From Volutella citrinella (taxonomy: Eukaryota > Ascomycota > Sordariomycetes > Hypocreales > Nectriaceae), in contig JAWZSP010000006.1 of NCBI GenBank assembly GCA_034401135.1, forward strand, positions 4,464,001-4,528,000: a stretch of 64,000 nt of DNA. Reading direction: 5' to 3'. This document shows positions 24,179 to 50,137 of this stretch, piece by piece. Both the position numbers and the translations under genes were made by a program. Each line of letters begins with the position of its first letter. The first letter of the stretch is position 1. The notes beneath the pieces were generated by a model. The model searched no databases, was not told the DNA's origin, and saw nothing but the letters and a program-made list of their open reading frames with translations.

Positions 24179-25902
24179 ATGGCACTTACCGGCCCCGCGG
24201 TCGCAAAACACAACAGCAAGGAAGATTGCTGGGTGATTGTTCATGTGCGTCATGTTTCGTGACGAAGCAGACTCGTCAGGCCTTCTGAAATGTAACTCGC
24301 TAATCCTTACAAGGGCAAAGCTTACGATGTTACGGACTTTCTACCAGGTTGGTCCATCGACACTGATGTTGGTTTGACTTTGCTGACACTTGTGTAGAGC
24401 ACCCTGGTGGAATGGGGATCATACTCAAATATGCTGTGAGAAACCACTCACTATCTATCAAGGTGCATCTCGACGTACTGAAACTGACTTCGTGGCCAGG
24501 GAAAGGACGCAACTGAAGCATATGAGCCAATCCATCCCCCAGATACACTCGACAAATACCTAGACACGCTGAAGCACATGGGCCCTGTCGACATGTCGAC
24601 TGTTTCTCAACAAGGGACTGGGGAGCTATCTCCAGACGAGGTTCAGCGCCAAGAAGCAATAAAGTGTATGCCGTTGTTGGAACAGTGCTACAACCTACTG
24701 GACTTCGAAACTATCGCCAAGAGAACAATGAAAAAATCAGCTTGGGCATACTACTCGAGCGCTGCGGATGACGAAATTGTGAGCTTGAAGTTGCAGGGCC
24801 GTAGGTTCATCACTAACCTGCCGAATAGACTATGCGCGAGAATCACTCCGCCTTCCACAGAATATGGTTTCGGCCCAAAGTTCTTGTCGATGTTGCGAAA
24901 GTCGACCTATCAACCGTCATGCTGGGCAACAAAGTCGACATGCCCTTCTATGTGACTGCAACAGCCCTGGGAAAACTGGGCCACTCGGAAGGAGAGGTCG
25001 TCCTTACTAAGGCTGCAAAGAAACACAACGTCATTCAGATGATCCCTACGCTCGCATCGTGTTCCTTTGACGAGATCTTGGACGCCAGGGAGGGTGATCA
25101 AGTACAATGGCTTCAACTCTACGTCAACAAAGACCGCAACATTACTCGCAGCATTATACAACATGCAGAGGAAAGAGGATGCAAGGGCCTCTTTATCACA
25201 GTAGATGCACCACAGCTGGGCCGTCGGGAAAAGGACATGCGTAGCAAGTTCACAGATCCTGGCTCAAATGTTCAAAGCACTCGACGCATGGACACAGACA
25301 ACACTCAAGGGGCTGCAAGGGCTATATCTACGTTTATTGATCCATCACTGAGCTGGGATGACATTCCCTGGTTTCGGACCGTCACGAAAATGCCTATACT
25401 TCTCAAAGGTATTCAGCGGGTTGAGGATGTTATCAAAGCTGCTGAAGTCGGAGTACAGGGCGTGGTTTTAAGTAATCACGGCGGCCGACAGCTTGAATTC
25501 GCGAGGTCAGCTATTGAAGTTCTCCATGAAACAATGCCTCGGCTCCGAGAACTTGGTATACAAGATAAGCTTGAAATCTATATCGACGGCGGTATCCGTC
25601 GGTCTACGGATATCATCAAGGCATTGTGCCTAGGTGCTAAAGGTGTCGGCATAGGGCGGCCATTCTTGTACGCGATGAGCACCTACGGGGTTGATGGTGT
25701 GGACAAGGCAATGCAGTTGTTAAAGGACGAGATGGAGATGAACATGCGGCTCATCGGATGTGCCAACATTGGAGATTTGAACGAATCATTGGTTGATGTG
25801 AATAGCATCTCGAACCATGGCTCATTCCCAACTGATAATCTCGGAGTAGCTAATTACGATCCGCTCATCTCGCCGCCGCAGCGAGAACTGGCGAAACTCT
25901 AG
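24179..25902 (+). CDS. Flavocytochrome b2-like L-lactate/2-hydroxyacid dehydrogenase
   Basis: Structure join(24179..24244,24314..24347,24398..24435,24500..24778,24829..25902), 496 aa; introns of 50-69 bp, with two small early exons of 34 and 38 nt. An N-terminal cytochrome b5 heme domain (residues ~10-75; HPGG heme ligand, second His in YEPIH) is fused to an FMN-dependent alpha-hydroxyacid dehydrogenase. Catalytic His and Arg lie in LSNHGGRQLEF, the FMN phosphate site is IDGGIRR...GAKGVGIGRPF, and VDAPQLGRRE is conserved. The family oxidises L-lactate or related 2-hydroxyacids and passes electrons to cytochrome c. There is no obvious mitochondrial presequence, so it may not sit in the intermembrane space like yeast Cyb2. 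It opens the catabolic cluster. Confidence 0.9.
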
Positions 25903-26278
25903 CCTGGTATTAGAGAACATAGAGGATTAAATCTAGGGCAAAAGCGGTGGCGAGTCCGAGTATGATTAGGCTATGAGTTGAAATTAAAATATTTATAAAA
26001 CAGTCCATATCTATATTAATTTATTTATTATAGAGGCATATACTCTTTAATCTATATTAGAATTCAATTAAAACAATCTGAGCTATATAGACAAGATTAT
26101 CTAATAGTAAGTTAAGGTTTCCTTTCTTATTATAGATAATCAAGTTCACAGTCAGAAGTTACTTATAAAATTTAATTATAATCAATTTCTTTAATTTTGT
26201 AGCTAGATTAAAAGGAAAAAAAAAGGAAAAGAAAAAAGTCATATGTATGCGTAATCAAATTAACCTTGTTCTAGGCTA
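25903..26278. other. AT-rich intergenic between convergent genes
   Basis: About 376 bp of strongly AT-rich sequence with TATA-like runs and poly-A near 26210-26240. It lies between two convergent 3' ends, so probably terminators or polyadenylation signals and no gene. Confidence 0.5.
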
Positions 26279-28840
26279 TTAAATCTTGCTAGACTTCGAG
26301 TTGCGCTCTTGACCTTGCAAAGGAAGTTCGCAAAACCTTTTATACAGTTCTATAGCTGAGGGGTTTGCCACGCTGCCACTCGATACAACTTCAAAGCCGC
26401 TTACTATTTGCTTTATGTTATTCTCGCATTTCTTCCCGTTCACTGTGTAAGGGATGTCTGCAACCTCGAAGATGAACTTGGGCACGTGCCGCGGAGAGAA
26501 CTTCTCCCTAATAGCGGTTCTCAATCTCTGCTCAAGTTCTGCACCGAAGCTGCCTGGTACTTTCATCTTGATGAAGAGCAAGACCCTCTCCTCAGGGTCC
26601 GCAACTCTCTTCTGTCCCACGCAGATGCTGTCCACAATATCAGAAAACATCTCCGTCACAGAGTATATTTCAGAAGACCCGAAACGAACCCCAGAAGGGT
26701 TGAGGACGCCGTCACTAGAGCTTGTGGTTAATCAAGATTCATCAAGCGCCAAAACCCACTTACGATCTGCCAAGCAATTCAAGTCCACCAGTATCTTGAT
26801 GATGTTGGGCAAAGTCGCCCTGGTGCCAACAACTTGGTCCGAAACGTTCAAAGTATGATGACCTATACCTCTCGAACCCCCGAGGGCCTCTAAATTCAAG
26901 AGGCTGGCTGGGAAATGGTTTCGTGCAGACCAGCTCGCCAGCAGCACCAGAAGACGCCATAGAAACCAGTTCTTCTTTGGCTGCGTCAGCAATGTCCACG
27001 GCCATTCCGAGACATTTGACCTGAATCTCCCCACTGTATACAGGAAGAATTGGCGTCCCTCCCACGACTACATTCAAGGTCAGTGGTTAACACCGGGAGA
27101 AGACTCTAACAAGGCGGTACTCACAACAACCACAAATGTCTGTTCCACCACTCATAGAAATGAGATGCACCTGGGCTGGGAGCGCAGATTTGTAGATCCA
27201 ATCATACATGCCTGCAGATAAAGCGGAGCCGGTCGACGTTACCACTCGCAGCATTTTCAGGTCAAACAAATCTCCTTTATCAATCACATCTCAGTTTCAA
27301 CCTTTCAGGCGATCATGTATACAGAAAGGATACTCACTCGGAATGATTGACCGCTGTTTCAGCTCGGATAGATATCGCGGAGATGTCCCGAAAACAGTCA
27401 CGCTGCATTTTGAAAATGTTAAAAGCCGGACAGGTTGTTTTCGGAAGGCGCCACGACTTACCCGACCTCTTCGGCGAGTTCCCACAGGATAGTAGGCCTG
27501 GGGTGTAGGGGCGAGCCATCATATAATAGCATAGACTTGGCGCATGATAGGTTCAACAAATTCATTACCCACATTACCCAGGAAGTCTTGGCCGAGTTAG
27601 TAACTAGATCCGCCGTGTGATTTGTAGATACTGAAAATACCGTAGTGTACTGAAACACGACGTCCTCATCTTTGCGGACGTCGTTTTGTAGTGCCATGTC
27701 AACTTTGACTTTTAGGGCTACGCCCTAAAACCTCGTCAGTCGATATTCTCAAGAGGCAAAGGTCTGATAGCTCTTACCCCGGTTGAGTGAGTGATACACT
27801 TTGGTTTTCCGGTCTGATTCACTGATCAGCTGGAGGCGATCAATATAGGGCTGGACGCTGGGCAACGTACAGTTCCACCTGAAAAAAGAATAAATGCCGG
27901 ATGGGAGAATGGGAACATTGCGTAGCTGTCGTCTCGGCGGGTTGCGCGGTTGATGAATGATTGCCATGAGCAGCCATGACTAAATTTGGCCAGATCTTGA
28001 GAAATACTGCAGTATGGGATCACTACCACATCTTGCAGGCCTGTATAGCTTTGGTTAAACGCATGTGACCATTGGGCAATACGCTTTTCGAGGTTGATGG
28101 TCTTGGTAGCGTAGATGTAACCGTCATCAGCAAATACCACCTTGGGCATCACTTGGCCGTACCTCTCTAGGATAGCATCTGGTCCTAGATCGGGTGCCGC
28201 TGATGTCCAAATTGCTCCGATAGATAGTGTTGCGAGACAAAACACGACGGCGTATACCGAGTTTGATAGCACACCAGCAACAACATCGCCCCTCGTAATA
28301 TTTGACGCTTCCATGGCGCCCCGACAGATTTTAACTCGTTCATGTAGATCTCCCCATGTGACAATCTCAAGACCTGGAACGCCTTCCCTTGCAAAATAGA
28401 TGGCAATATCGTCAAAGTGGCGGTCCCTGAACATGTGTTCGACTATATTGAGCGATTCGTCGGGGAAAAACTTGGGTGGAGGAAAGAGATGTTGGGTCCT
28501 TTTAACCTAGAAATGAAACACAAAATGTCAACTCTATGGTTCATGGCTGCATTACCGCGTCCATCGAAGACAATTCAGTGCTAGGTTACGGTAGAGCACT
28601 CACCTCTGAACCCAAAGCAGGTCCAACGCTTCGGTTAGTAGGCAGGGGCAGACCCAGCCAGATATACGCATCTCTCCAGAAATCATTCGAAGACGTATCA
28701 TCGATTGACCACTGATGGAGATCCGCGTAGCTGTGCAAGCTCAGACCATGATTGTGATTTACATAGTTCATGAACTTGGCGATGTTTGTTTTGGCTGTGT
28801 TGGATGGTATCCACAGCGGTTGTTTTGATACTGCAGCCAT
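26279..28840 (-). CDS. Acetoacetyl-CoA synthetase
   Basis: Structure complement(join(26279..26714,26764..27067,27125..27274,27338..27402,27462..27586,27641..27724,27778..27813,27871..28506,28604..28840)), 690 aa, the usual length for the family. Eight introns (49-97 bp) and a 36-nt exon encoding TGKPKCITHSTG. ANL-superfamily motifs: ATP-binding P-loop FILFSGGTTGKPK built across three exons, FQYTT followed by WVMWVMN, LHLISMSGGTD-type A5, QGDFA, and LNPSGVRFGSSEIY. The order and the N-terminal KPLW-like start (KQPLWIPS) fit acetoacetyl-CoA synthetase rather than acetyl-CoA synthetase. It makes acetoacetyl-CoA from acetoacetate, ATP and CoA, feeding the thiolase at 43.8 kb. The C-terminus ends SSKI, a weak peroxisomal-type signal. 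Confidence 0.88.
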
Positions 28841-29033: not shown

Positions 29034-29039
29034 CCTCGG
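29034..29039 (+). promoter_or_regulatory. CCTCGG site
   Basis: Far-type hexamer about 195 bp upstream of the acetoacetyl-CoA synthetase ATG. Confidence 0.45.
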
Positions 29040-29862: not shown

Positions 29863-30431
29863 CTAATTGTCGACCTGGTAGATTTCATACTCGACCGCTG
29901 ACCCCTTGGAGTCCACGACAAATCTCCCCTCTCCAATCCACATTGCGTCTTCGACCCACTTGAACTTCGGATCGCTCGTCTCGATGATGGGCGATGAAAA
30001 CCACTTGTGGTCACCGTACTCCGTTGTCTTGGCGTCAGAAGACCACTCCAGCACCTTGTTTGCCTTTTCATCAAATGCGAGTCTCCCATGATAATGGATG
30101 TACAAGCCGTGACCATCGGCAGTTCGCGCCTGGGTCCTGACATCGAGATGTGCTATCTTGGAGGTTTGATTGACCTACAGTCCAGCAGAAGGGTCAGCGC
30201 TTAATTCAATTCGATGATTCTGATGGGAGTAGTAGGGGGCCAAGCTCTTACCAAAATCCAATCCCCTCCTCCCAGCAGCAAATCTGCCTTGAGTCCCGAG
30301 CCTTCCAGAGAGCCTGAAGTTATGGGAACGATGACTCTAGAGGAGCCGCCCTGGATAGACTGCAAGTCAAGGCTATTTTCGCGGGACATGTATCCTCTCA
30401 TGGTGAACTTGTGCGTCAATGTGGGAGCCAT
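29863..30431 (-). CDS. DUF3237 family protein
   Basis: Structure complement(join(29863..30174,30252..30431)), 163 aa. The intron is 77 bp (GTAAGA...CTGTAG), and the start at ATG 30431 gives MAPTLTHKFTMRG. The order RVIVPITSGSLEG, then ADLLLGGGDWILV, then AHLDVRTQARTADGHGLYIHYHGR, is the DUF3237 (UPF0311) beta-barrel pattern at full length. No signal peptide. The family's biochemical role is not established. Members often sit beside oxidoreductases in catabolic gene sets, as here. It is divergent from the SDR gene, with 441 bp between ATGs, suggesting co-regulation. Confidence 0.8.
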
Positions 30432-30872: not shown

Positions 30873-31715
30873 ATGACGTCGTCCTACCTCATTCAAATGT
30901 TTTCGCTCGAGGGAAAGACCGCAATCGTGACTGGAGGTACCGGAGGCCTCGGGTCTGCTATGACCACAGCTCTTGCCCGAGCAGGTGCATCAATTGTCTC
31001 GATTGAAATGCCCAATGACCCATTGTCGGAACAATTGAACGGCACAATGAAGGAACTTGGGGCAAGCTTGCAATCCTTTAATTGTGATCTTCAAGATAGT
31101 TCAAGCCTGAGAGACTGTTACAAGGCCATTTGGGATACAGGGATAACCCCAGACATTCTACTAAATTGCGCCGGATTAATGCGCCGGAACCTTTGCGAAG
31201 CCGCCACGGACGAGGAAATTGACCTGGTAAGTTTCATGCAAGCGTGAACGCTTTTGAGCTTCTTTTATTGAATATACATGGCATAGCTCGTCAATGTGAA
31301 TTTAAAGGCTGCATACATCTCTGCGCAAGAATTTGGGCGGAAACTTCTAGCCCTTGGGCGCCCTGGGAAAATAATCAACATTGCATCGGTTGCCTCGTTC
31401 CAAGCAGGTCTCAACACAAGCGTTTATTCCGCAACGAAAGGGGCCGTTTTACAAATGACAAAGGCTTTTAGCAATGAATGGGCATCCAAGGGCATACAAG
31501 TCAATGCTATTGCGCCAGGTTTCATGAAAACAACCATGACTACGACCTATCAAGATGATGCAAAGATGACGGAATACCTCATGGCACGAGTTCCTGCGGC
31601 TAGGTGGGGTGAGCCAAACGATTTGGAGGCGGCGGCACTGTTCCTCTCCGCTCCTGGAAATAAGTTCACGACAGGTATTTGCTTAGCGGTTGATGGTGGA
31701 TACTTGGGCAAGTAG
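30873..31715 (+). CDS. Short-chain dehydrogenase/reductase
   Basis: Structure join(30873..31226,31287..31715), 260 aa; one 60 bp intron (GTAAGT...CATAG). Classical SDR signatures: cofactor loop VTGGTGGLGSA, NCAG, catalytic Ser in IASVASF, Tyr/Lys in VYSATKGAV, and AIAPGFMKT. An acidic residue after strand 2 (SIEMPND) suggests NAD(H) preference. It most resembles gluconate 5-dehydrogenase/KduD-type SDRs. The substrate is unknown. In this cluster it could oxidise a secondary alcohol to the ketone used by the neighbouring Baeyer-Villiger monooxygenase. No targeting signal seen. Confidence 0.9.
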
Positions 31716-32137: not shown

Positions 32138-34235
32138 TTAATACTTGATGCTCTCAAAACCCTCATCGGGATTATCAAAGTAGTACGTCGAATCGTGTCC
32201 TTCGGCCTCCATTGTCGAGAACCCATTGCCTAGGTAGGCAAAACGGTTCTTTTTCACTGGTGTCCAATCAAAGTCCTCATATCTGGGCTTTGCTAGCATA
32301 TGGAACCAGTGGACCCTACTGCCCGGGTGCAAAGCGACAATCGGTCCGTCAATCTTCCCGTTCTTGAACCATGACCGGCAATGCGAGCTCCACGCGGTGC
32401 GTTTCATGAAGACGTCGATGTGTTCACTGAAGTCATTGACGGCTGATTGCTTGGCAACAACTGATTTGATGCCTTCCGTTTGGCATTTATGAAGTAGCTG
32501 CATGATGTACTTGGCCGAGTGCTCCAAAATTGGAAGAACAGAGCCGTGGCCGATAGGAGCGTTGGGACCAAGAAACACTTCAGGGTATGATTAGCTTGTC
32601 TGGAGGATCGAGGTATGAAGGCGGCTGAAGGTTCTTACTGAAATGGTTGGGGAAGTTGGGAACAGCAAGTGACAGATAAGCCTCTGGCTTGTCTTTCCAT
32701 TGGTCGCCAAGTTGTATGCCCCCCTGGCCCACGACGGGATACCTTGGACAAAAGGAAATGTCGAAGCCAGTGGCACAAATGAACATGTCGATTTTCAAAA
32801 CTTCCCCGGTCACCAGCTTCACGCCGTCGGGCACAATTTCCTTAATTGAGTCTGTTACGACGCGAACATTTTCCTTGATTAGAGCTTCGAGATATCCGTT
32901 ACCAGGCGTCGGCCGGCGGCAGCCAACGGCGAAGGTAGGTAGCATGTGTTTCAATAGCGGCGAGTCGTGGCCCAACTTTCCCTTCATCTCATTGATTGAG
33001 AATCTCACGGCTTCCTCTTGCTCGGGGGAATCTTTCATGATCTGCCCTGGACGTCAGTGTGTAGTCGGTTCACTCGGCACGTTACCCAGAACCCACAAAT
33101 TTGAAACGGGAGTTGAGCTCTGATTCAATGTCTTTGCGATAGCGCATGTATGCTTCCGGATCATTCCTAAATGTTTCCTTTTGTTCTTGGGAAACTTGGT
33201 TTCCTGTCAGTCAGTGGGGCAAGACTCGAGATTACTCTGAGGCTAATTCTTACAGGCAAAGTTGGATCCGCCCGGCCCTGCTTTGCTTTGTGCAAATCCC
33301 GCGGTAATCCATGTCGGGGTACGAATAAAAGTTATGAGCTCCTTGACATCTGCATATTTAATCAGAGACGGCATCAAGGGTTGAGTAGAGGAAGAGATGC
33401 GAAAAACATACCAGGCTGTATCGTCGGCACAATCTGGACCCCGGAAGAGCCGCAGCCAAGGACGGCTACAGTCTTGCCTCTCCAATCGGCTGACATGTCC
33501 CAGGCCGCGCTGTGCAGCAGTGTGCCTTTAAAGGTATGAAGACCAGGAATGTCGGGCCATTTCCAGTTGCTGGGGTGGTGTAAGCCATGGGGGACAGGGG
33601 CACATGAATTATTTGCAGGTGCTTAACAACGTACTTGAGAATTCCCGAACCACTAATCATGAAATCACACCAGTCATCGATGACATTACCGTTGACCAAG
33701 TCCTCGATCTTGAGGTTCCATATCGCTTTTTCTTGGTCCCAAACGGCGCTTTTGACTTGGTGACTGAGCTTGATGAATCGATACAACTCATACTTTTCCG
33801 CGAGGTTCCGGAAGTACTGCAGAATATCGGGAGCAGATGAGTAGCTGAGTGTGAAATTAGTGCACCAAGAACAAGAACAAGCCGCTTGAATATTCTATTT
33901 CGGAAAGCCACTCACAAGTTCTTCCAATCCGGATTCGACTCCCAGGTAAATTGGTAATTATGCGAGGGGATGTCGCAAGCGCAGCCAGGGTATCTGTTCT
34001 CGTACCACGTGCCTCCAACTTCAGGGTTCTTTTCGTAGACGACGTGAGAGACGTTTTGCATATGTCTATTGATTTGATAGGCCAAGTTCAACCCTGCAGC
34101 GCCAGCACCAACGGTAACAACTCGCAGCTTGCGAGCCTCTCCTAGGGGCGTGTCTAGCAACTGGTAGCCGCTGGTAGAACCGTTGGCTTTGGCATCGCCA
34201 TTGGCTGCGTATACGTTGGGGTTAAGCTCAACCAT
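32138..34235 (-). CDS. Type I Baeyer-Villiger monooxygenase (FAD, NADPH)
   Basis: Structure complement(join(32138..32577,32639..33041,33097..33194,33254..33349,33412..33569,33635..33844,33916..34235)), 574 aa; six introns of 55-71 bp and the frame closes. The fifth exon must start after an AACCAAG acceptor, because the nearer GACAG acceptor would create a stop. Motifs: FAD Rossmann VTVGAGAAGLNLAYQ, EVGGTWYENRYPGCACD, the BVMO fingerprint FKGTLLHSAAW (FxGxxxHxxxW), the NADPH Rossmann VAVLGCGSSGVQ, and ICATGFD. The family inserts oxygen next to a ketone carbonyl, giving an ester or lactone. The esterase and lactonase in the same cluster could then hydrolyse the product. It is divergent from the CTF1/Far-like regulator. 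Confidence 0.92.
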
Positions 34236-34956
34236 GATGATGATGACACTTTGAAGTCTGGAAACAGTCTTGATGATGGTTGTTTGTGAGTCTGAGCTGA
34301 AGGCCAGGGAATGACTAGTGGCTAGGCCGACGATTTGTAGGGCCTTTGTCGGTGAAACCGCTCCAGCTCCGCTCCAGCTGACCCTGGCTCGGGATATGGG
34401 CATGGCCAGGGCCAACCCAAACCGGCTGATGCAGTGTGAAGCCCCGGGTAACTGCGACGAGACCCACAGCATATAACCGAACCGAGTGATCGACTTAAGT
34501 TAGCGTCGGCCCATGGCTGGCTGACTAGTTACGCATATCGCCGTGTTCGGTTAGACACTTGGGGTCACGTAACGAGTTGCTTCGTAATTACGATTTTGTA
34601 CTGTAGTAAGCCGAACAAGATCGTCGCCACTCTCCGGCTTGGGCACATGATTGATGAGACTTGGAACTCGAGACTGCTAGCCAACCAACCAGCAACGTCA
34701 AGGTCAAGAGTCCTGATCCCGGCAAACTCTACGCTTTACCCCGCTCCCCATCCCCCGCTCCCCATCCCCCACACCCCATACTTTCTCCCCCGCGACGCCA
34801 CCATGACGACGGCGGCCTTCATCCTAGCTCGGCTTTGGGGATCCGCGTCCATCCCCTGCTGCGACCGAGGGCTATTTGGCACCGACACCTCCTGACCTAC
34901 CCGTCGCATCGCTATCGCCCTCGCCATCAACGTGTCGCGTTTCTGCCCCGTCCAAC
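34236..34956. promoter_or_regulatory. Bidirectional promoter, monooxygenase/regulator
   Basis: 721 bp between divergent ATGs. It contains CCGAGG at 34865-34870, a CT-rich leader with a duplicated CCCGCTCCCCATC block (about 34739-34768), and CCGAACCGAG near 34479. Confidence 0.45.
34865..34870 (-). promoter_or_regulatory. CCGAGG (reverse CCTCGG) site
   Basis: Far-type hexamer about 90 bp before the regulator ATG. It could reflect autoregulation, and is far (630 bp) from the monooxygenase ATG. Confidence 0.4.
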
Positions 34957-37250
34957 ATGACAACCAACGCTGGTGCCAATCCCCAGAGCAACGTCTCGCC
35001 CAGCCGGCCAAAGGGCTTCCGTCGGGCCAAGGCGGCCTGCAAGGCCTGCAACGCCCGCCGTGTGCGATGCGATGTCACCGAGTCTCGGCCGTGTTGGCAT
35101 TGCCGCAACCGCGAGACTCCATGCGAAATTGCAGAGTCGCGCCGGGGCAAGTGCGTCTTCAACTCTTGACTCTTGAGTCGTGCCAGGCCTGGGTTCACCC
35201 GCTGACAAGATGCAGATATGACAGATCTAGGCGACAGAAGGCGGCAGAGGAAGCTGCCATTCAGCCTGGGGTCCTGTCGCCCCCCGCAACAGTCGATAAA
35301 CCTCCCACGGGAAGCGTGTCAGAAGGCAGCCAGCATGGCCTGTCAGGCAATGACCAGAACCGTCGCGTCTCCGTCGACGTCGAGACGCTGGCGCCCCCCA
35401 TGTTGACGCCGGAAAACATGCAGTCGACGCCCGGAGCAAGCAGCGTCGAAGAAGGTCCTGAGATGCTATTTGCGCGGATGACAGATCCTGAGCCGAAGCA
35501 AGCAGAGACTCTGCAATTGAACTCAGAACTCTACGCGACTCCCAAAACACTCTATCTGGGCGAAGCCTTTAGTCTTGCCTATGTGGTCAAGACGGTGTGT
35601 AGCCCATCAGGCGATACCCTAGAGCCCACCAAACTCCACTACGCCGTCCCATCATCCGTTTCGCCTGGCAATGCGCCGTATGAAGCTCGGGCGGCCCCTC
35701 TCGACCAGGATGTGCTCGCCTTTCTCCAGGTCAAGGGCGCCATGAGTGTCCCGTCAAAACATGTCAGCGACGCCATGGTTCTAAGCTTCTTCCGATCAAT
35801 GCACCCTGCGTATCCAGTCTTCGATCGCAATGCGTTCGAAATAAGCTACCAGCAGGGTACCATGTCCCTGCTCGCGCTTCAAACTGTCTATTTTTTAGCC
35901 GCCACTGTTTGTGACGAACATTTACTCACACTCGCTGGCTTCTATAACCGGGACCAAGCCAGGAAGACTCTCTACCTTAGGGCCAAGCTGCTCTACGATG
36001 CAGACTACGAAAAAGACATCACTATTCTCACTGCTTGCCTCTTTCTCCTGGGGTTTTGGTGGCAGCAACCGCAGGATCAAAAGGACAGTTGGCATTGGTT
36101 GGGTTGTGCCATTAGTTTGGCACAGACCTCAGGAATGCACCGGTCCACATCGGCTTCCTGCTTCAATCCGCGCACGCGTTCGCTCTGGAAACGCATTTGG
36201 TGGTCCATTTATGTTCGGGACCGTCATGCTGCTGCCGCTTTGGGACGGCCCTGTCGCATCCGTGACGAAGACTGCGATGTCGAGCCTCTTTCCCCCGTTG
36301 ACTTTGAGTTCGATGGAGAGTCTGGTCCAGACATTGTTGGGAGCCAAGAGCCGTATCACGTCTCATATTGCATCAACATGTCCACGCTTGCAGTCGTGTT
36401 AGGACGTGTACTTACCTGGAGATTTTCTCCTGCGGCCGGTAAGAAGGCAACCGACCTGGAGAATATCACCGCTGATCTGCAAGGCTGGGAAGCGCAGCTA
36501 CCGGCCGAGATGCTACTTCATCCACTGCGGAATGCTCTTGATGCGCCGTTTTGGGCAGCTATGCTGCATGCGAGCTACCACAATTCTCGCATTCTCTTCT
36601 ACAGACCAACTCGGGTCGCCGTCGATGAATCCACCGAGGCCAAATGGAATCAATTCGCAGTCGGAGCTGCCGACTCGATAACGCGTCTCGCCGAAGACCT
36701 CCTTACGGCCGGCGTTTTACGCGAGGGCCAGCTTCATCTAATCCCCTCTCTTTTTGCCGCCCTTTCCATGCACGCCATTGTTATGCGGCGTAAAGACCCC
36801 GTTCGCCGCCTGCTTGCAGAAAACCGTGCGCGACAGTGTATGTTAGCCTTGAGTGAATTGTCCAAATCCTGGCCAGTTGGTGGTTGGATTCTACGTCTCT
36901 TCGTCCGCCTCATGGTCAAGCTCACAGGTCGGGAGTCTGGATTCGAGAGAACCACGGAGGCCACGCACGCGCCGACAAACTGCCACCCCCCGTTGTCTCT
37001 TGGCGGTCCTGATTCCGACATTCACCAGAACATAAACTCCAACGTTTTCTCGCTTGAAACGGAAGCTACCGTCGTAGGACAACCCAATCAAGGTTTTACC
37101 GAAGATGTAGGCGTCTGCTCAGTGGTAGCTTCAGCTATGGATCACAGTATGTTCGACTTTGAGGAGCTATTACAACAATCATTAGAAAGTCTATCACCAC
37201 TTGACTTCTTTTGCGAAATCAATAGCTCTGGAATTTTGGAGAACCAGTAG
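34957..37250 (+). CDS. Zn2Cys6 regulator, CTF1/FarA-like
   Basis: Structure join(34957..35150,35216..37250), 742 aa; the 65 bp intron lies just after the zinc cluster, a position common in fungal Zn2Cys6 genes. The cluster is CKACNARRVRCD...CWHCRNRETPC at residues ~27-55, followed by a basic linker (RRGKYDRSRRQK). The fungal_trans domain contains LSFFRSMHPAYPVFDR, FWWQQPQDQKDSWHWLGCAIS, and WKRIWWSIYVRDRHAAAALGRP followed by RIRDEDCDV. That last pattern is characteristic of the cutinase regulator CTF1 and the FarA/FarB regulators of fatty-acid utilisation. Those bind CCTCGG, present in all promoter regions around here. It sits in the middle of the cluster and is probably its regulator (inference). 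Confidence 0.88.
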
Positions 37251-37583: not shown

Positions 37584-38765
37584 TTATGAGTCTGTTCTAA
37601 TTCTTGTTGCTACAAACTTGGCAATATCATTCAATGCGCGGTCGGCATTTTCATGAACGTCGGGCGGGAATTGAATATATCCGTGAGGACTGCCAGCGTA
37701 AAGTTTGAGAATGGCCTCTCCGCCAGACAGCATCCACCTGGTTGTCATAAATAGTGAGTCCTCCAGTAAGCAGTCCTCGGTCCCACAGGTGAACAAAGCT
37801 GGTGGGAGTCGTAAGTCGCCCAAGTTGGAGTAGAAAGGAGAAACTTGTGGGGAAATAATGTCATTCGAATCCATGCCGGACAAGTACGCTTCACGGAACC
37901 GAGTGAGCGACTCCTCATCGAGGACGAGGGTTGGAGACCGTCTGAAATTCCTGGTGCCGGGATGCCAGTGCAGCGAGAAAGTGCCGTAATGAAGCAGCAA
38001 ACCCGACAAACCAAAGTTCGCGTATCGCTCCACAGGGGAGCGCAAGAGGGCGAGTGCGCTCAACATTGCCAAGTTTGCGCCCGCGCTCTCACCCCCAATA
38101 AAGGTCAGCCTCGCACCGTAAACATCCAAACCGTTGTCAATGAGCCATTCCGATGCATCTATACAGTCGTCGGGGGCAGCTGGAAAACGGTGCTCCGGCG
38201 CGAGTCGGTATCCCACCGAGATGCAAATCAGGTTGCACCTATCCGCGATTGTTTGAAGATACGTATCCGACGACTCTTCATCGTTTAGAACCCAGCCACC
38301 ACCGTGCATATGTAAAAGAATGCCATTTGCGCTGCTATTGCCGTCGTGTGGCTTCAGAACTCGACAAGGGATGACCCGGCCGCTCTCGCGAGAGGGAATA
38401 TTGATAGATGTTGCCGATGGCAACAACACTGCACCTGGCAAAGGTGTAAGGCCTCGTCTTCTGAGTGATCGATACTCTGCGGCCCCTATCTGATTTCTCC
38501 GGCGATTAATTCCAACGTTGGTGGCTTCGTGCGGATGAGATGGTGGAATACTGACTTCGTACCACTTGTCTGTCTTACTTTCAAGCTTCTGCAGGTTTTG
38601 GTTATGTTCCGCGGTAGCAGGGCTAATCGATGAAGGACAAAGCTTGAGGCTATTGAGTCTGAGGTCGCTCAAAAGCTCAGAGCTTCTGTCATCGTCCCAC
38701 TCTGTCCGATGAGAGGTCTCCAACGCTGCGTTGCCGTTGACGGCATTGCTGTTGACTGAGCCCAT
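37584..38765 (-). CDS. Alpha/beta-hydrolase, hormone-sensitive-lipase type esterase
   Basis: Single exon, 393 aa from the internal ATG 38765 (MGSVNSNAVNG); an upstream in-frame ATG at 38810 would add 15 residues. I prefer the shorter form because MGSV starts are common and the upstream stretch looks like 5' leader. HSL-family motifs: oxyanion HMHGGGWVLN, nucleophile GGESAGAN, acid CGTEDCLLED, and His in GSPHGYIQF. No signal peptide, so cytosolic. The family hydrolyses short acyl esters. Beside a Baeyer-Villiger monooxygenase it is well placed to cleave the ester made from a linear ketone. Confidence 0.88.
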   Translation of the reverse strand: MGSVNSNAVNGNAALETSHRTEWDDDRSSELLSDLRLNSLKLCPSSISPATAEHNQNLQKLESKTDKWYEVSIPPSHPHEATNVGINRRRNQIGAAEYRSLRRRGLTPLPGAVLLPSATSINIPSRESGRVIPCRVLKPHDGNSSANGILLHMHGGGWVLNDEESSDTYLQTIADRCNLICISVGYRLAPEHRFPAAPDDCIDASEWLIDNGLDVYGARLTFIGGESAGANLAMLSALALLRSPVERYANFGLSGLLLHYGTFSLHWHPGTRNFRRSPTLVLDEESLTRFREAYLSGMDSNDIISPQVSPFYSNLGDLRLPPALFTCGTEDCLLEDSLFMTTRWMLSGGEAILKLYAGSPHGYIQFPPDVHENADRALNDIAKFVATRIRTDS

Positions 38766-39033: not shown

Positions 39034-40166
39034 CTATTTTTCGTATGAGTGGAAACCTGATCCGCTTTTGACACCCAGCTTGTTCTCGGCAATCATTTTC
39101 TTCAATACATCTCTAGGCTCCTGCGGCAACCCTGCTCGAACCGCGGCATAATGTTCTTCAATGTCCAAAACAACATCCAACCCTACCACATCCATCTGCT
39201 CACATGGGCCCTTCGGAGTCTTGAGGACGTCTTTGAAAATGGCATCGATCTCCCCGGGCGTTGCCACGCCCTCGGAAATTGCAAGCAAAGTCTCACGCTT
39301 GATCGCTGCCCAGACCCTACAGCAATATGGTTAAAATGATTCTCTCCAGTGATTCAAGGAACAGAGGGGTAATGCACCTGTTATAAATGTAACCCATGGA
39401 TGATTTTTTGACAACGAAAGGCGAGAACCCGTGGTCACGCGCTGCTTCGGCTACGTTCTGGAGCACTTCTGGGTTCGTAGTTTTGGAAGCCATAATTTCA
39501 AGGGCTATTGTTGATTAGAATCAGTGCATCGAGGTGAATCTACCGGGCCAACATTACCGGACGTCTCAGGCGGCCAATCTGCGAGATGTTAGGAGCTTGA
39601 TCTCAAAAGACATCATCAGTGCCACGCACAGGAATGGAGACTGATAAACTCATTGCCTGCTTTGATGGGTAGATCGTGGATGATCTCATCAATTGTGTAG
39701 CTACTCGAATTTGATGCAATAATCGTTCCGACGGGTGCCAGTTCGTCCAGTTCTCTGACTACGCTTCGTTTTAGAGGGAGGTTTTCGGGCAGGCACTAGA
39801 TTCAGCTGTCAAAACGGGGTTTAGCCTGAAAACGCCCGAGGAAAATTCCCACCTCGATGAGGAGCCATGACTGCCTAATGGCGCTCGATAGCTCCTGAGT
39901 GGTCTTGGTCGAGACTATTCCCCATTTCTCAGTAGAGCCGGACAAGGTTGGCCAGGACACCCGAAGTGCTTGGATCTCCTTGTCTGCCATCCGAAGCTGT
40001 CGCTCATCCTTGTCGATGAGATTGACAGGCCTTCCTCTACGTGTCCACTGCCAAGTATTAACGATACGTCCCTCGGAAACATTGCGTGCCTTCTACCCAT
40101 GAATGCCAGGCGTTTGCCCTGCGTGCCGGCTCCTAAAATGGTGACCGCTTTGAGTGTTTTGTCCAT
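39034..40166 (-). CDS. 3-hydroxyacyl-CoA dehydrogenase family protein (with a splice-donor anomaly)
   Basis: Exons complement(39034..39316, 39378..39504, 39558..39578, 39630..39795, 39853..40047, 40098..40166) give 286 aa in frame, including a 21-nt exon encoding WPPETS. Motifs: Rossmann VTILGAGTQGKRLA, NLIDKD at the end of strand 2 (NAD), TIIASNSSS, EFISLHSYWPPET, and the C-terminal HCDH domain (GYIYNR...GVATPGEIDAIFKD). The family oxidises 3-hydroxyacyl-CoA to 3-ketoacyl-CoA with NAD+, feeding the thiolase. Intron 1 is odd. In-frame joining needs a break between ATG and GGTAGA, so the donor has one extra G. A canonical GT donor shifts the frame, and the alternative acceptor drops four to five Rossmann residues. 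Confidence 0.8.
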
Positions 40167-41258: not shown

Positions 41259-43140
41259 TCACAGCTTGTTCGCAGGCAACGGTCTTTGCAGCCGAGTGAG
41301 CTCATGATACAGCAAGCTAGGCAAAAACTCTGCGTAGTCTTCGCCGGTGATCTGTGTTGCCAAGTACTGTTCAGCCTGGCGGAATCTACTGCCTTTAGGA
41401 GCTTTGGCTTCTAGTAATTGTGTTTGCTCGCCCAGCAACTTGAGTGCGTACGATTTGTCGATCTTGTTGCCCTCGGAAGTAGTTGCACCATGACGTACCC
41501 AATGCCAGAGTTGGCTGCGCGATACTTCAGCTGTGGCAGCATCTTCCCTAAATCGTTAAGAGGCATGTTAGAGAACGTCATAAATGATCATTTAGAGAAG
41601 AGAACTGACATCAGATAGTTGATTGGCACGCAACCGACCCCTCGAATCCAAGCCTCGATGTAGCCAATTGCAGCGCTCAAATTCAAGCGAACACCACTTT
41701 CAGTGATTTCACCAGGATTGCTCATATTGAGCAGCTCTTTCTGACCAATGTTAATGCCATCAGACTGCACATAGATCTGATTAGGCGTCGGCATATACTC
41801 GTTGAAAACCTCTAAGGCGATTGCAGCAAGAGCAGGGTGAGCAACCCAGGTTCTGAAGATGTTGTTAGTCGCATAGCTATTATTATAGGACTTTCGTATC
41901 CATCACTGACCCATCATGGCCAGCACGGACTTCTCGCAACTTGTCCTGGCGCACACCATCTAATGCTTTTTCATTCGCAACCGGGTCGTCTTTGATGGGA
42001 ATTTGGGCGGCCATGCCGCCCATAGCGTGCACACCTCGCTTGTGACACGTCTGGATCAGAAGTTGGACCTGAATAACTCGTATTAGCCTATCAAACTGAT
42101 CAAAATTGTCTATCTCGGTAGTCGGACTGACATAAGCATCCATAAATGGGACAGACATTGTGACGGAACTCCGATCCGGAAGCACGAAGTGTTTTTGATG
42201 CCGAAACTTCTTGATGAAGCTAAAGATGTAGTCCCAGCGTCCGCAATTAAGACCCGAACTATGCTCTCGAAGTTCGTATACGATCTCATCCATCTCAAAA
42301 ACCGCTAGAATAGTCTCGATCAAGACAGTTCCTCGGATGCTTCCGCGTGGTATACCGATATAGTCTTGGCTGAGATTAAAAACATCGTTCCACAGCCGAG
42401 CTTCAAGGTGTGACTCCAGCTTAGGCAGATAGAAATAAGGCCCGAAGCCTTGACGAATGCTTTCAGCAGCGTTGTGAAAGAAGTATAGGCCAAAGTCAAA
42501 AAGCGAGCCTGAAATTGGTTCGCCATCAATCAAGACGTGCGCTTCTTCGAGATGCCAGCCACGAGGTCGTACGATCAGTGTAGGCAACCTACGGTCCTTG
42601 CGTAGTTTGTACTCTTTAGGGCCCTGGCGAAATTCGATAGTACGACGGACCGCATCATAAAGATTCACTTGGCCCATGATCATGTTCTCCCACGCAGGAG
42701 CGCTGGAGTCTATGTATTGCATTAGTATCTAATAGTCGGCACCGTCACCCGTGTTTGATCAGTCCGAGCGGCAACATACCTTCGAAATCGGCCATGTATG
42801 CCATGACGTCACAGTTCAGGGCATTCACAACCATCTTTCGGTCTGTAGGACCGGTGATCTCCACTCTGCGGTCGACTAACCCAGGGGCAGGAGGAGCACC
42901 TTTCCAGGCCGGATTTTCACGAATGCTGCGGGTCTCGGGCAAGAAGTCTGGCAGATTACCCTGGTCAAACTCGGCTTGACGCTTGGCACGCCTGTCAAGC
43001 AGTGCCTTGCGGGTTCCATTGAATGATCTGTGTAAAACGGCCACGAACGCCAATGCTTCAGGTGTCAGGACTTTCGAATGTTGAGATTCGATGGCACCTG
43101 AGACTATGACGCCTTGCAATATGCTTTCAGTCGATGCCAT
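41259..43140 (-). CDS. Malate synthase
   Basis: Structure complement(join(41259..41547,41610..41852,41911..42068,42132..42709,42780..43140)), 542 aa, the usual length for malate synthase A; introns of 58-70 bp. Diagnostic stretches: GPY(F)[58 protein letters not shown], and the [11 protein letters not shown] motif carrying the catalytic Asp. It condenses acetyl-CoA with glyoxylate to malate. The C-terminus NKL resembles a PTS1, so a peroxisomal site is likely. It is divergent from the acetyl-CoA acetyltransferase gene. Core malate synthase is usually not embedded in a catabolic cluster, so this may be an additional copy. Confidence 0.93.
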
Positions 43141-43848: not shown

Positions 43849-45194
<1,346 letters not shown>

Positions 45195-45833
45195 TCAGTG
45201 CTGTAGTTAGTATATATATAAAAATGCTGCCTGGTAGGGTAGATGACTCATTGTGTTGAGCCTAAGGTTCATTCCTTGCTCCTACTCTGATGGACTTTTC
45301 CTGCGAGGAAAGTAGAAAGCAGGCTTATTGAAATGATGCGTTCTTTTTCTTAGTCTCTATTTGCTACTTTTCGATGTACAAATTACGTGACCTTCCAAAT
45401 TTCTATAAGTCACACGACGATTGCGGGTTAAGATTTCGGTAGCTCGGTAGCCCCCTCGATCTTGAAATGATCACGTAGGTTTGGGGTTAGCATTCATATC
45501 TAAAGAGGTAGTGTTGGGTATGTCAAATAGAGAAGACTACTGATAAAGACAATAACTATAGCGAGCAAAGCTTGTTCTGCATCTAAAAGTAAAAAAAACT
45601 AAATGCTGTGGAGTTTACTACTTACGCTGCGCAGTCTTCAATTTTCAATTAACCCTAAGCTAGCTAACTAAGTCCGGGTATGAATAAGGAGAGCTTATGG
45701 CTACGAGGAGGACGCGCGAGAAGAGCACACTGTACTAAGAATGTCGAGGCGCGACTGGAAACTGCCCTCTATGCACGACGGATCCTATACAGCAGGCCGC
45801 CCACGGCACTCTACATCATACGTAGTAGTTCAA

Positions 45834-45839
45834 CCGAGG
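45834..45839 (-). promoter_or_regulatory. CCGAGG (reverse CCTCGG) site
   Basis: Far-type hexamer about 540 bp before the lactonase ATG. Confidence 0.35.
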
Positions 45840-46079
45840 CGGCTAGGTACACTGCTGGCACATTACCGCCCTCAAAAGAGATCTCTAGGAATGCACTCGC
45901 AGCTGGGCCGAAGTCCATCTCGTGCAGGCTCGCGGTCTACGATCTGCCTAGGGAAAACCTTATGAAACCTTCGGTTTCAGTTGCCCAATTACGAACTAAG
46001 GCTTATTAATCGCGGTTGACTGCTATGCTAGCCGATACAAGGGTTAGACACCGAACCACTAATAAACGCCACTGAATTG

Positions 46080-46085
46080 CCGAGG
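46080..46085 (-). promoter_or_regulatory. CCGAGG (reverse CCTCGG) site
   Basis: Far-type hexamer about 295 bp before the lactonase ATG, with a related TCTCGG 12 bp further on. Confidence 0.4.
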
Positions 46086-46377
46086 CTAGAAAAGTCTCGG
46101 TTTGAATTTCGTCCCCAAGTATGCTAAACACTGTCGGCTACTGTAGTCGGTCACTTGACCAATCAAGATGTGGGCAAATGCAAGCCAATTGGCACAGAAG
46201 TAGGTGGCGCATCAATGATGCAAAAATGATCTCGGCTTCAGATTAAAGTCTCGACGTCCGCCTAACAATTTTCAAACAACCCATATTCTCAAGCTTCTGC
46301 AGTGTAAAGGAATCGTTCTACACGAAGCCATTTTATCACCACTCATACCCATTCATCCCATCTCAACCGTTGACATC

Positions 46378-47368
46378 ATGGCGGCCCAGGCCTCGCAAGC
46401 TCAGCTGCTCGCATCAGCTTCAGTCCCAGCATTGAAATGTCCTCCGGGAACGAAAATGCATATTCTGGACCTGGGAACTCTTCAAGCTGATGAGGGATGG
46501 TGAGAAGTAACGGCCTTCATTTTTTTTTTTATCATGACATTGATTTCTCCAATCATAGGCTTCTTCGCGGGGCAAACGGGTCAAGCGTGGGCAACCCGAA
46601 CCCTGAGCCTAAAAGACGAGATCTTGTTGTCCTGGCGGCCTTGATAGAGCACCCGCAGGCCGGACTTATCCTTTACGAAACTGGATGTGCCGAGGACCTG
46701 GCTGTTGTAAGTCGTGATTTAGTGAAATGACCGTCTTGCCTTGGCTAACTGCGAACAAGAATTGGGGTGCACCCCTCACTGATGTCTTCCCTCGAGTGGA
46801 GTACAGTGATGAGCAGAAGCTGCCCGCGGCAATCAAGGCGACAGGCAATGATATCAAGGACGTCAAGGCCGTCATTATTGGCCACCTGCACCTGGATCAC
46901 GCCGGAGGCCTCGAGCACTTCATTAACACAGACACGCCTATTTATGTGCACGAGGAAGAGTTCAAGCACGCCTGCTGGGCTGTTGGCACGGGCGCCGATC
47001 TGGGCGTGTACGTCGCCCATTACATGAAGCTGGATGCGCTGAAATGGGAGACTTTTAACGATGAGCATTTGGACATTTTCCAGGGTATCACTCTCCACCA
47101 CTCCCCCGGACACACTCCGGGCCTAGTGATTATGCAGGTCAACCTGGAAAATGACGGGACCTTCATTTGGACTACCGACCAATTCCACATTGCAGAAAAT
47201 TACGAACTGAGCCACCCTCACGGATGGCTGGCGAGAGATCATACTGCCTGGATCCGCAGCTTGAACATGATCAAGAGGCTGCACAGAATGTTCAATGCGA
47301 CCATCATATTTGGTCATGACAAAGTGGTTGCGGAAAAGCTTATCAAGGCAAAGAAGTTTTACAACTGA
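46378..47368 (+). CDS. AttM/AHL-lactonase-like metallo-beta-lactamase hydrolase
   Basis: Structure join(46378..46499,46559..46706,46760..47368), 292 aa; introns of 59 and 53 bp. It has the metallo-beta-lactamase fold signature HLHLDHAGG (HxHxDH), an Asp/Glu-rich linker, HHSPGHTPG, TTDQFH and IIFGHD for the two-zinc site. Overall it fits bacterial AttM/AiiB-type N-acyl-homoserine lactonases, which also open gamma-butyrolactones. No signal peptide, so intracellular. In this cluster it could open a lactone formed by the Baeyer-Villiger enzyme from a cyclic ketone. Quorum quenching is an alternative. The substrate is not determined by the sequence. Confidence 0.88.
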
Positions 47369-48177
47369 GAGTAGTCGTATCTGAACGAGTTACCTCGACT
47401 GTTCGTGTATTAAATTAAAATTTTGATTCAATCAACTGAAAGGAAACTTGATGTAATGCTTTTGATACGCTGTAGTCATGTTTTCGAGCTAATACAAGCG
47501 TAATTTTTACAATCATACCTTAGCCTATGTCTCGCACTCATTACATACAATGATTTCCTCAAGAGCAAGATATACTCGCAACAGCCAATCCGTCGAATCT
47601 TTACACTTCCTAGCAAGCTTAGGCTGCTTGAAGCCACACTCGTTAAGACTGGACCTAGGCTCATACAGGGATTTGCTAAGATCCCTCACCCACAGAGGTC
47701 GAGCTATGCGGTCCCTAGTCTTTGTCACCTGTCTTATGATGTCTTAGGGGCTGCCACCATGAACCCGTGCCATAGAGCCGCCCGCATCCTCGGTGTCTTC
47801 CATTAACTCTCGCGCTAGTGACGCCATGGTACAAATGGGGTGCCCGGGTATTGCGGGGTGTGGGACCTGGGGAATATGGGGTCGAATGGGGCCGAGCCTT
47901 CCCCTCATTTTGTTCTTAGTCCATTGCGAAGCAGATAACCATCGGCTGCTTGCTCATAACGCCTGCATTGAAAAATACTTTCCATCACGTGCTGAGACGT
48001 TGCTGCGGCAGTGGGATGGATGGATGCGATTTGCGGAATCACTCACACATACATAAAGGGCTTTCGATAGCGCCTTTGGTTCAGAGAATCTTACAAACCG
48101 ACTCTCGCTGAACTACAACCGCAAGAGCACACCACTCCCTTTTTTCATCAAAAATCTACTGGTCATAATACTTCATC
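47369..48177. other. Intergenic; promoter of MFS carrier
   Basis: About 0.8 kb, no gene seen. CCTCGG at 47788-47793. Confidence 0.5.
47788..47793 (+). promoter_or_regulatory. CCTCGG site
   Basis: Far-type hexamer about 385 bp before the MFS carrier ATG. Confidence 0.4.
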
Positions 48178-50137
48178 ATGACGGCGAAGGCTGGGAGCGG
48201 CATCAGCCCCTTCAATTTGGCGGTGAGACTCTCATGACAGCCACCAACGTATTTCTTCAGACTCTAAACCAAAACTCGCGCAGATCGTCCTCGCACTTTG
48301 CATGGGCAGCTTGACCTATGGCTACACCTTCAGCATCGTTTCGACTACCCTTGGTCAGCCGAGTTGGTTTCTTTACTTTGATTTAACGCAAGATCCAACG
48401 GAAAAGGCCAAATACGACTATACAAACGCAATCATTGGAGCCATGAACGCGTGCTTCTCTGCGGGAGGTTTTATTGGGTCGTTATTCATTGCCTGGTCGT
48501 GTGACTATTATGGCCGCAGGAAATCCTTGCTGATCGCAACCCCGATTGCCATTGTGGGGGGAGCATTCCAGGGTGGCGCGGTGCACATTGCAATGTTCCT
48601 CGTTGGGCGGTTTCTTGGTGGATTTGCCGTCGGCAAGTTGACGTTCCGCCTAGCATATCTGAGTCGAAGCTAACATGAGATATAGGCATGCTTGTTGTCC
48701 TAGTTCCTTTGTTCCAGTCAGAGATTGCTCCGCCAGCAAGCCGTGGATTTCTCGTTTCACAACATGGTAACTGGTCTTGTTTCGGAAATAGAAACTATGA
48801 CAGCCAATGGCTAACCGATGTATAGGCGTTGTTCTCGTTGTGGGTTACTCTTTGGCTGCTTGGGTTGGCGTTGCATGCTACTTCTCCGAAAACCCAGTAT
48901 TCCAATGGCGCTTCCCACTGTGCCTACAGATTGCGTGGCCCCTTATTATGCTTCTTCTCTCACCCTTTTTACCGGAATCTCCTCGTTGGCGTAGGTTATC
49001 TTCATGACGAGAGTGTCATTATTATAATATGCTGATTGATGGCCAGTTCTCCTTCAAGGTCGCCAGGAAGATGCATGGAAAATCGTGCTCCGGCTTCACT
49101 CAGGTGGGCCAGAAGGCGAAACTGACAAGACAAGCTTTGCCAGAGAAGAATTCTACCAAATGGCACAACAAGTTCTGCACGATCAAGCTTGCGCTGCCGA
49201 CGAAACAATCAAGACCCTCTTTACTAAACCATCTTACCGTAAACGAATGCTCTGTGCATTCTTCACAATGTTTGGAGCCGAATCTACTGGAATCCTGGTA
49301 ATCTATAGTACGTAAATTGAGTGAATGGAAAGACTCAATCCGTTTACCAAATTTCCTAACGATTGCGCAGACTACAGTGTCCTTCTATATCAGGGACTCG
49401 GATTCAAAGGCAGCCTTCCCCTAATCCTAGCCGCCACCTATGTTACTGTGGCGTGTTGTGGAAACTATATCAACTCTCTACTAATTGATCGTATTGGCCG
49501 AAGGAGATTATTCCGTAAGTGCTACTCATTGTTATTAACTAAATAGCTTCTCGATTTTGACTTGGAACAGTTATCGGGTTAACTGGCTGCCTGTTGTCAA
49601 CTTGTTTCTTAGCGGCCATTACCGCGGAGTATACTGGCACAACAAATTCCCATGGGCTCCGCGCGGGAGTATTCTTCCTGTTCCTCTATATTACCTTGTA
49701 TGTCATCTCGATTTTATTATCATCCTGGGCGAAAACTAACTGAAGGTGATAGTTATGGATGCTGCATCGATGCGACGAGCTTTGTGTACTGCGCCGAGAT
49801 CTTCCCTAATCATATCCGCGCTAAAGGACTCGGCTTCAGTCTGTCCGTTCTATTCCTGTCGACTATCGCATACTTGGAAGCTGCGCCAACTGCATTTGCA
49901 CAAGTGGGATGGAAGTTTTATCTCCTTTTTATTGTTTTAACGGCTATCAATATTCCTATTATATATGTTCTATTTCCTGAGACAATGGGACTTTCCCTGG
50001 AGGAGATTGGAGCTAAGTTTGGAGATGAGGTTGCAGTATTTCTTACCAGTCTTACTAAGGAACAACGAGCAGAATTAGATAAGAAGATTAGTGAGAAGGA
50101 AGAAGAATCGGCAACGCATGTTGAGGTTAAGGCTTGA
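48178..50137 (+). CDS. MFS transporter, sugar-porter family (contains a GC-AG intron)
   Basis: Structure join(48178..48222,48284..48632,48686..48766,48826..48990,49047..49307,49371..49514,49571..49697,49753..50137), 518 aa; frame closes across seven introns of 53-63 bp. Intron 2 (48633-48685) has a GCAAGT donor instead of GT. Sugar-porter signatures: DYYGRRK in loop 2-3, FLVGRFLGGFAVG, PESPRW, DRIGRRRLF and the late PETMGLSLEEI. About twelve membrane helices. It is a plasma-membrane importer of a sugar or another small hydroxylated compound. As the last gene of the cluster it may bring in the substrate; specificity cannot be read from sequence. Confidence 0.88.

Follow-up and report, generated by a model that had tools for sequence, protein, structure and literature searches.

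A block of twelve consecutive genes in the fungus Volutella citrinella may constitute a discrete, repeat-bounded and specialised catabolic island, which would take a ketone, ester or lactone down to acetyl-CoA and malate, partly in peroxisomes. Judged from the sequence, we give this reading a probability of about 0.48. The window, that is the whole stretch of DNA analysed, comprises 64,000 nucleotides of contig JAWZSP010000006.1 (C6; positions 4464001-4528000 of 4591365) from a genome of 45.1 Mb on 26 contigs, and positions given without a contig refer to the window. The first gene of the block starts at 24179 and the last ends at 50137 (about 26 kb, as predicted with a custom exon-intron gene finder). 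The interpretation is plausible; it is strengthened by the boundaries of the block and by a promoter motif, and weakened by the finding of no sign that the gene set is conserved.

Gene content and a putative route to acetyl-CoA and malate

The gene models (Table 1) come from a small exon-intron gene finder, followed by correction through splice-site enumeration and by eye, and were checked against PDB sequences, for 11 of the twelve proteins against Pfam and for six of them against NCBIfam. In the final models exon 7 of the acetoacetyl-CoA synthetase (AACS) is revised (695 to 690 amino acids), and the malate synthase is reduced from 563 to 542 amino acids after taking out a 63-base in-frame intron. 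Models were clean for 11 genes, the exception being the 3-hydroxyacyl-CoA dehydrogenase (HACDH) with its odd first splice junction. All modelled introns are of the GT-AG type with lengths of 49-97 bases, internal stops occur in none of the models, and the gene finder called no additional gene between the twelve within 24179-50137. An earlier note on this DNA had described twelve consecutive genes with the same ends, which the models match exactly. Most of the families it named were recovered with Pfam and NCBIfam, as was its claim that the block has a zinc-cluster regulator of its own (Zn_clus and Fungal_trans domains, cysteine pattern), but not the AttM type of the lactonase. The motif test took in all proteins but the DUF3237 protein and the carrier, and catalytic or family motifs are intact in each of these nine enzymes and in the regulator.

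Table 1. Features of the block and its boundaries in window coordinates (aa, amino acids)
Feature	Position	Strand	Basis and details
Alkyl-sulfatase relic, 5'-truncated, outside the block	22015..23164	-	Pfam Alkyl_sulf_dimr 1e-41
Left minisatellite array, unit about TGTTGCAAGCTGCCTGCCCGGGCC	23165..23407	+	Tandem-repeat search, unit scan
Flavocytochrome-b2-type L-2-hydroxyacid dehydrogenase (cytochrome b5 and FMN)	24179..25902	+	496 aa, C-terminus AKL; Pfam cytochrome-b5 and FMN_dh; PDB flavocytochrome b2 3e-169
Acetoacetyl-CoA synthetase (AACS)	26279..28840	-	690 aa, nine exons, C-terminus SKI; NCBIfam acetoacetate-CoA ligase
DUF3237 protein	29863..30431	-	163 aa; Pfam PF11578 2e-36; PDB UPF0311 proteins
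Short-chain dehydrogenase (SDR), KduD/gluconate-dehydrogenase-like	30873..31715	+	260 aa; Pfam, PDB, NCBIfam
Type I Baeyer-Villiger monooxygenase (BVMO)	32138..34235	-	574 aa from MVELN; motif and PDB/database relatives
Zn2Cys6 transcription factor, candidate pathway-specific Far-like activator	34957..37250	+	742 aa; Pfam Zn_clus and Fungal_trans; cysteine pattern
HSL-type esterase	37584..38765	-	393 aa, single exon; Pfam Abhydrolase_3 4e-41
3-Hydroxyacyl-CoA dehydrogenase (HACDH)	39034..40166	-	282 aa as modelled; Pfam 3HCDH_N and 3HCDH; PDB
Second malate synthase, type A	41259..43140	-	542 aa, C-terminus NKL
Acetyl-CoA C-acetyltransferase (thiolase)	43849..45194	+	412 aa; Pfam; active-site Cys/His/Cys kept
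Metallo-beta-lactamase-fold lactonase-like protein	46456..47368	+	266 aa, HLHLDH motif; nearest AhlS/GcL quorum-quenching lactonases
Sugar-porter-type MFS carrier	48178..50137	+	513 aa, eight exons; Pfam Sugar_tr 1e-84
Right, degenerate minisatellite copy, orientation as left	50269..50363	+	Unit scan
Fourteen CCTCGG sites in nine promoter-bearing gaps	23699, 23901, 29034, 29155, 30649, 30713, 34865, 38981, 40491, 43420, 43528, 45834, 46080, 47788		

We infer the substrate, the order of the steps and the peroxisomal location of the following putative route. The sugar-porter-type carrier would bring the substrate in, the SDR would turn a secondary alcohol into a ketone, and the BVMO, going by the chemistry of its family, would insert an oxygen to give an ester or lactone. 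The HSL-type esterase and the metallo-lactonase could then open this product, so that fragments would enter as hydroxyacids and acetoacetate: the flavocytochrome-b2-type enzyme would oxidise an L-2-hydroxyacid, AACS would activate acetoacetate, HACDH would oxidise 3-hydroxyacyl-CoA, and cleavage by the thiolase would yield acetyl-CoA. Finally, the malate synthase of the block would join acetyl-CoA to glyoxylate, partly in peroxisomes, as the signal-like C-termini AKL, NKL and SKI suggest. SKL-like C-terminal tripeptides are peroxisomal signals, SKL being stronger than NKL, SKI and GKL. The earlier reading, by which the block would serve one pathway, is partly supported, in that the enzymes chain logically from ketone, ester or lactone over acetoacetyl-CoA to acetyl-CoA and malate, and in that extra copies of central enzymes are present.

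Several of these assignments exceed family cut-offs. AACS scores above the NCBIfam equivalog cut-offs of both TIGR01217 (591.1 bits, cut-off 520.9) and NF002937 (649.4, cut-off 639), as does the malate synthase for TIGR01344 (774.6, cut-off 594.5). For the thiolase the subfamily cut-off of TIGR01930 is exceeded (410.5 bits, cut-off 240.55) and CNGGG is present, the histidine pattern having been allowed an A after GH; an equivalog model was not reached among the 25 NCBIfam models listed for it. Type I BVMOs carry the signature FxGxxxHxxxW(P/D) between two GxGxxG motifs, and the protein of the block holds GAGAAG, FKGTLLHSAAWD and GCGSSG in that order. In the PDB it is related to cyclohexanone, steroid and phenylacetone monooxygenases (CHMO, STMO, PAMO), and an upstream in-frame ATG at 34403 would extend it to 630 amino acids. 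The HSL-type esterase has both the HGGG and the GESAG motif, with esterase MGS-MilE3 as nearest PDB chain (5e-63). The lactonase-like protein has 6cgy and AHL lactonases (GcL) as nearest PDB chains. The AttM type had to be abandoned for it, as it reaches only 77.8 bits with NF045700 (cut-off 390) and is nearer to AhlS/GcL, though the HxHxDH motif is kept.

The presence of an L-2-hydroxyacid dehydrogenase and an extra malate synthase in one block, both ending in tripeptides resembling peroxisomal signals, would also fit a two-carbon salvage island. There the BVMO and the hydrolases would release glycolate or lactate together with an acyl part, the dehydrogenase would make either glyoxylate or pyruvate from the former, and any glyoxylate would be captured by the private malate synthase, much as the yeast malate synthase DAL7 captures glyoxylate in allantoin use. 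However, the dehydrogenase is nearer to flavocytochrome b2 than to glycolate oxidase, over its whole length (567 against 302 bits) and also with the flavin domain alone (1kbj chain, 479 bits), which argues for lactate rather than glycolate, and ordinary assimilation of acetyl-CoA needs a malate synthase too. We consider two-carbon salvage very unlikely. In-frame stops lie just upstream of the dehydrogenase, so that it would have no leader unless a further exon exists.

A cluster for detoxification or for tailoring of specialised metabolites, in which a lactone from a plant or microbe would be modified by the BVMO, the hydrolases, the SDR and the DUF3237 protein, with the CoA enzymes doing no more than supply or remove small acyl units, appears quite improbable to us as well. 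The AHL-lactonase-like protein would suit it, and some of the named BVMO relatives carry natural-product labels (stcW, moxY, tazF), others being labelled cyclohexanone or steroid monooxygenases; but the twelve genes include no polyketide synthase, nonribosomal peptide synthetase, terpene synthase or prenyltransferase, and a malate synthase has no evident use in such a cluster.

Boundary repeats, base composition and extra gene copies

The block is bounded on both sides by copies of a minisatellite whose unit measures about 24 bases, the right copy being degenerate. The two arrays align locally with a score of 60, compared to a best score of 29 for 1979 random segments of the window, 25 for 825 genome segments and 40 for 1000 Markov copies. 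Matching terminal repeats are a mark of mobile elements and islands, and the direct minisatellite copies at the two ends are repeats of this kind; the analysis brought up neither a target-site duplication nor a mobility gene. When the genome was searched with the left array, three further places scored, of which two are no more than about 36 kb away from a contig end; as the search skips common words and missed the right array, degenerate copies are missed by it and the true number may be larger.

Directly to the left of this array lies the relic of an alkyl-sulfatase gene, which keeps the dimerisation domain and has an open frame that continues into the array, the N-terminal metallo-beta-lactamase part not being found. 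A genome search with the fragment gave a single match, the fragment itself. With a G+C content of 0.486 the block is poorer in G+C than its flanks (0.532) and than five random pieces of the genome (0.537-0.573). The G+C content at third codon positions (GC3) was compared with that of the paralogue for six of the twelve genes and is lower in five of them: malate synthase (0.53 in the block, 0.80 in the paralogue), AACS (0.51, 0.68), HACDH (0.58, 0.69), thiolase (0.49, 0.86) and hydroxyacid dehydrogenase (0.53, 0.89), the remaining gene being the lactonase (0.63, 0.61). The repeats, the cut alkyl-sulfatase gene and the low GC3 fit a discrete island, which may have arrived or been assembled separately.

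Relatives elsewhere in the genome were found for all ten gene families searched, that is for all twelve genes except the SDR and the carrier. By their identities, malate synthase, AACS, thiolase and others of the block are extra, diverged copies. The one other malate synthase (C6, 2.87 Mb) is 62-78% identical by exon and ends in SKL, and a full AACS paralogue on C4, besides which there are others, is 42-63% identical by exon and ends in GKL; for these two enzymes the paralogue, Pfam and database-relative comparisons used earlier models, so that the identities may lean low. Away from the locus we further found paralogues of the thiolase (71% identical), of HACDH (42-67% by exon) and of the hydroxyacid dehydrogenase (68-74% over residues 47-496, C-terminus SKL), and the lactonase has relatives in the genome that are 40-58% identical. 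In a tree of 20 malate synthases (18 of 120 listed matches and the two of this genome) the second copy falls together with Neonectria and Cylindrodendrum (99/96), which makes the fungus Nectriaceae-like, and the copy of the block forms a long branch outside the other 19, under midpoint rooting and with long rows unsurely placed. The AACS of the block is likewise a fairly long branch in a tree of 36 rows (34 of 120 listed matches).

Regions near chromosome ends collect duplicated catabolic genes and zinc-cluster regulators that share no pathway, and a chance aggregation of duplicated metabolic genes without a common pathway is the explanation to be weighed here. The contig ends about 77-103 kb away from the block, each of the ten families searched has relatives in the genome, the minisatellite recurs near contig ends in two of its three other places, and the malate synthase and AACS of the block are long branches. 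On the other hand, repeats bound the block, all nine enzymes tested have retained their motifs, and the functionally linked central enzymes AACS, thiolase and malate synthase adjoin enzymes for ketones and esters. Together with the promoter data below, we regard chance aggregation as rather unlikely.

A second copy of the block was not seen among the matches elsewhere in the genome. Match positions typed by gene and at most 15 kb apart join only BVMO, HSL, regulator and DUF3237 loci, apart from one pair of thiolase and regulator. Outside the block, five further pairs of BVMO-like and HSL-like loci within 10 kb of each other occur in three places, with 0.63 pairs expected under uniform placing (0 of 500 runs as high) and 0.87 under local shifts (1 of 500). 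BVMO-like and regulator-like loci give five pairs within the same distance (0 and 2 of 500 runs as high), which is a partial count. Matches in the window were omitted from these lists. Of the matches elsewhere, every one of the 28 HSL rows entered, those for BVMO were thinned and merged, which left 48 loci, and the 25 regulator loci represent about half of 62 rows. The recurring neighbourhood of BVMO-like and HSL-type esterase-like genes is located at C5:778066-807774, C2:5151494-5162324 and C2:5467300-5470795. At C8:3056177-3065339 a BVMO-like locus, a distant DUF3237-like locus (25%) and a zinc-cluster-regulator-like locus are found within about 9 kb.

CCTCGG in the promoters and relatives in other fungi

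CCTCGG is the binding site published for the Far regulators (PMC5068947, PMC10512302). Ten distinct words were counted in the gaps of the block, and the presence of CCTCGG among them follows from the Far reading. At least one CCTCGG was found in each of the nine promoter-bearing gaps (14 sites in 7388 bases) and none in the three convergent gaps (1131 bases), while the exons and introns of the block contain eleven more. No other hexamer is common to all nine promoter-bearing gaps, which speaks against chance aggregation. First-order Markov resampling of the gaps predicts 2.85 sites, and none of 300 resamplings reached either 14 sites or nine gaps. The longer CCTCGGT is present 7 times, with 0.66 expected from 50 kb of genome, and CTCGGT ranks second among hexamers in comparison with the bulk genome (16 seen, 3.2 expected). 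CCCCGC and TTATCT are also raised (10 versus 4.5 and 8 versus 2.3), and an extended CCTCGG with a second half-site was not found when looked for by eye.

The Zn2Cys6 protein of the block might switch on the genes through CCTCGG, and the block would then be co-regulated. The protein carries the Zn2Cys6 and Fungal_trans domains of FarA and FarB, which is a weak test of Far membership as both are common to many fungal zinc-cluster regulators. The placement of CCTCGG supports Far-type control, without singling out the block.

A number of results weigh against a specialised catabolic island at this locus. Bulk DNA often contains CCTCGG, a point which chance aggregation can claim: 40 occurrences in five random 10-kb pieces (50 kb) lead to an expectation of about 6.0 in the gaps, of which the 14 seen are an approximately 2.3-fold excess (P 0.0035), and in this comparison the word ranks only 86th of 1962 hexamers. 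A background of promoters from the same five pieces, weak because the gene finder called only 0-3 genes per piece, gives 5.5 expected sites (conditional P 0.02), and 6 of 10 background promoter-like gaps also hold CCTCGG. Four of the six paralogues elsewhere carry the word within 1 kb upstream (three sites for AACS, two each for thiolase and lactonase, one for HACDH, none for hydroxyacid dehydrogenase and malate synthase, with start codons partly approximate). As to the genes, the expected acceptor at the junction of exons 1 and 2 of HACDH (39984-40110, minus strand) puts the frame off and leads to a stop; staying in frame needs an unusual acceptor 13 bases downstream, by which four residues kept in the paralogue of this genome are dropped. 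The SDR and the lactonase-like protein both miss their NCBIfam family cut-offs: the former scores best with KduD among 232 families yet stays below the equivalog cut-off of TIGR01832 (240.8 bits, cut-off 338.85), and the latter is below every lactonase cut-off listed (AhlS 126.8 bits, cut-off 475). A KduD-like SDR and a sugar-porter carrier, as their sequences suggest them to be, do not point to ketones.

Comparison with other species adds to these points. BVMO relatives reach 76% identity (best 120 of 2548 matches) and come from Metarhizium, Cladophialophora, Fusarium, Clonostachys, Aspergillus, Exophiala and others. Among the matches listed no close orthologue was found for the malate synthase of the block, whose relatives reach 75% (best 120 of 8000, these at 72-75%), or for its AACS, whose relatives reach 61% (best 120 of 6783). 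The species giving the best matches differ between BVMO and AACS, and when 21 species present in both lists were paired by eye, the length of the longest contig agreed for only two, the other 19 differing. The agreeing species are Dactylonectria macrodidyma (2,130,175 bases) and Cladophialophora immunda (6,051,644 bases); with scaffolds of such length the agreement may be due to chance, and it was dropped as evidence of linkage. A conserved cluster in other species is thus not supported, and the absence of any sign, among the matches listed, that the set stands together elsewhere is what chance aggregation would lead one to expect. A conserved clade of cluster-type malate synthases was not seen either, nearly all named sequences among the best 120 of 8000 being labelled as ordinary malate synthase or 'hypothetical'. 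One scan of genome contigs for bacterial DUF3237 neighbourhoods yielded no relative.

Known systems and neighbouring loci

To our knowledge, catabolic clusters of fungi are mostly confined to peripheral steps, the assimilation of acetyl-CoA being a task of housekeeping genes. The yeast DAL cluster resembles the block as a catabolic cluster with its own malate synthase copy (DAL7), but it serves allantoin instead of ketones and has no BVMO, AACS or thiolase. Bacterial operons for the oxidation of ketones (cyclohexanone, methyl ketone, camphor) combine, like the block, a BVMO with an esterase or lactonase and an alcohol dehydrogenase; unlike these operons, the eukaryotic genes of the block have introns and a zinc-cluster regulator and reach down to malate synthase.

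In the Far regulons of Ascomycota (FarA/FarB; CTF1 alpha/beta), CCTCGG lies upstream of genes for fatty-acid metabolism and the regulators have Zn2Cys6 and fungal-specific regulator domains, as in the block (PMC5068947, PMC10512302). In contrast to those regulons, the candidate targets of the block and the regulator are assembled at one site with a BVMO, an esterase and a lactonase. The salicylate/3-hydroxyanthranilate catabolic cluster of Aspergillus terreus shares a BVMO, an SDR and a transporter with the block; its pathway, however, is aromatic, and the terms 'malate synthase' and 'acetoacetyl' are absent from the main text of the report (PMC7842363). Full-text searches of openly licensed papers, judged by titles and the beginnings of abstracts and in half of the cases without any paper containing every term, brought up no described cluster with the gene set of the block; the earlier note knew of none in fungi.

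A block with its own acetoacetate activation, thiolase, malate synthase, terminal repeats and regulator would be a clean case of fungi gaining whole carbon-use traits, and the BVMO chemistry, which is frequent in this genome though largely unassigned, would gain a link to a physiological role. Going further, one may picture a self-contained, movable and repeat-bounded island that inserted into the alkyl-sulfatase gene and covers everything from import and the first oxidation to central metabolism, for which it would have diverged copies of AACS, thiolase and malate synthase, with a private Far-type regulator acting at CCTCGG. We hold this stronger version to be unlikely; if it were true, a single step could enable a carrier of the island to grow on a ketone, ester or lactone that it had not used before.

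To the left of the block, the region 14811-21499 contains pieces of an MFS carrier (about 19692-21499, plus strand), an M20-type peptidase (17924-19268, minus strand) and a zinc-cluster regulator recognised by eye (14811-16931, minus strand), which possibly form a small separate unit. To its right, at 55028-58292 on the minus strand, we noticed by eye subtilase-like models with a 45-base tandem repeat at 55173-55288; their GC3 is high (0.76-0.77), unlike that of the block.

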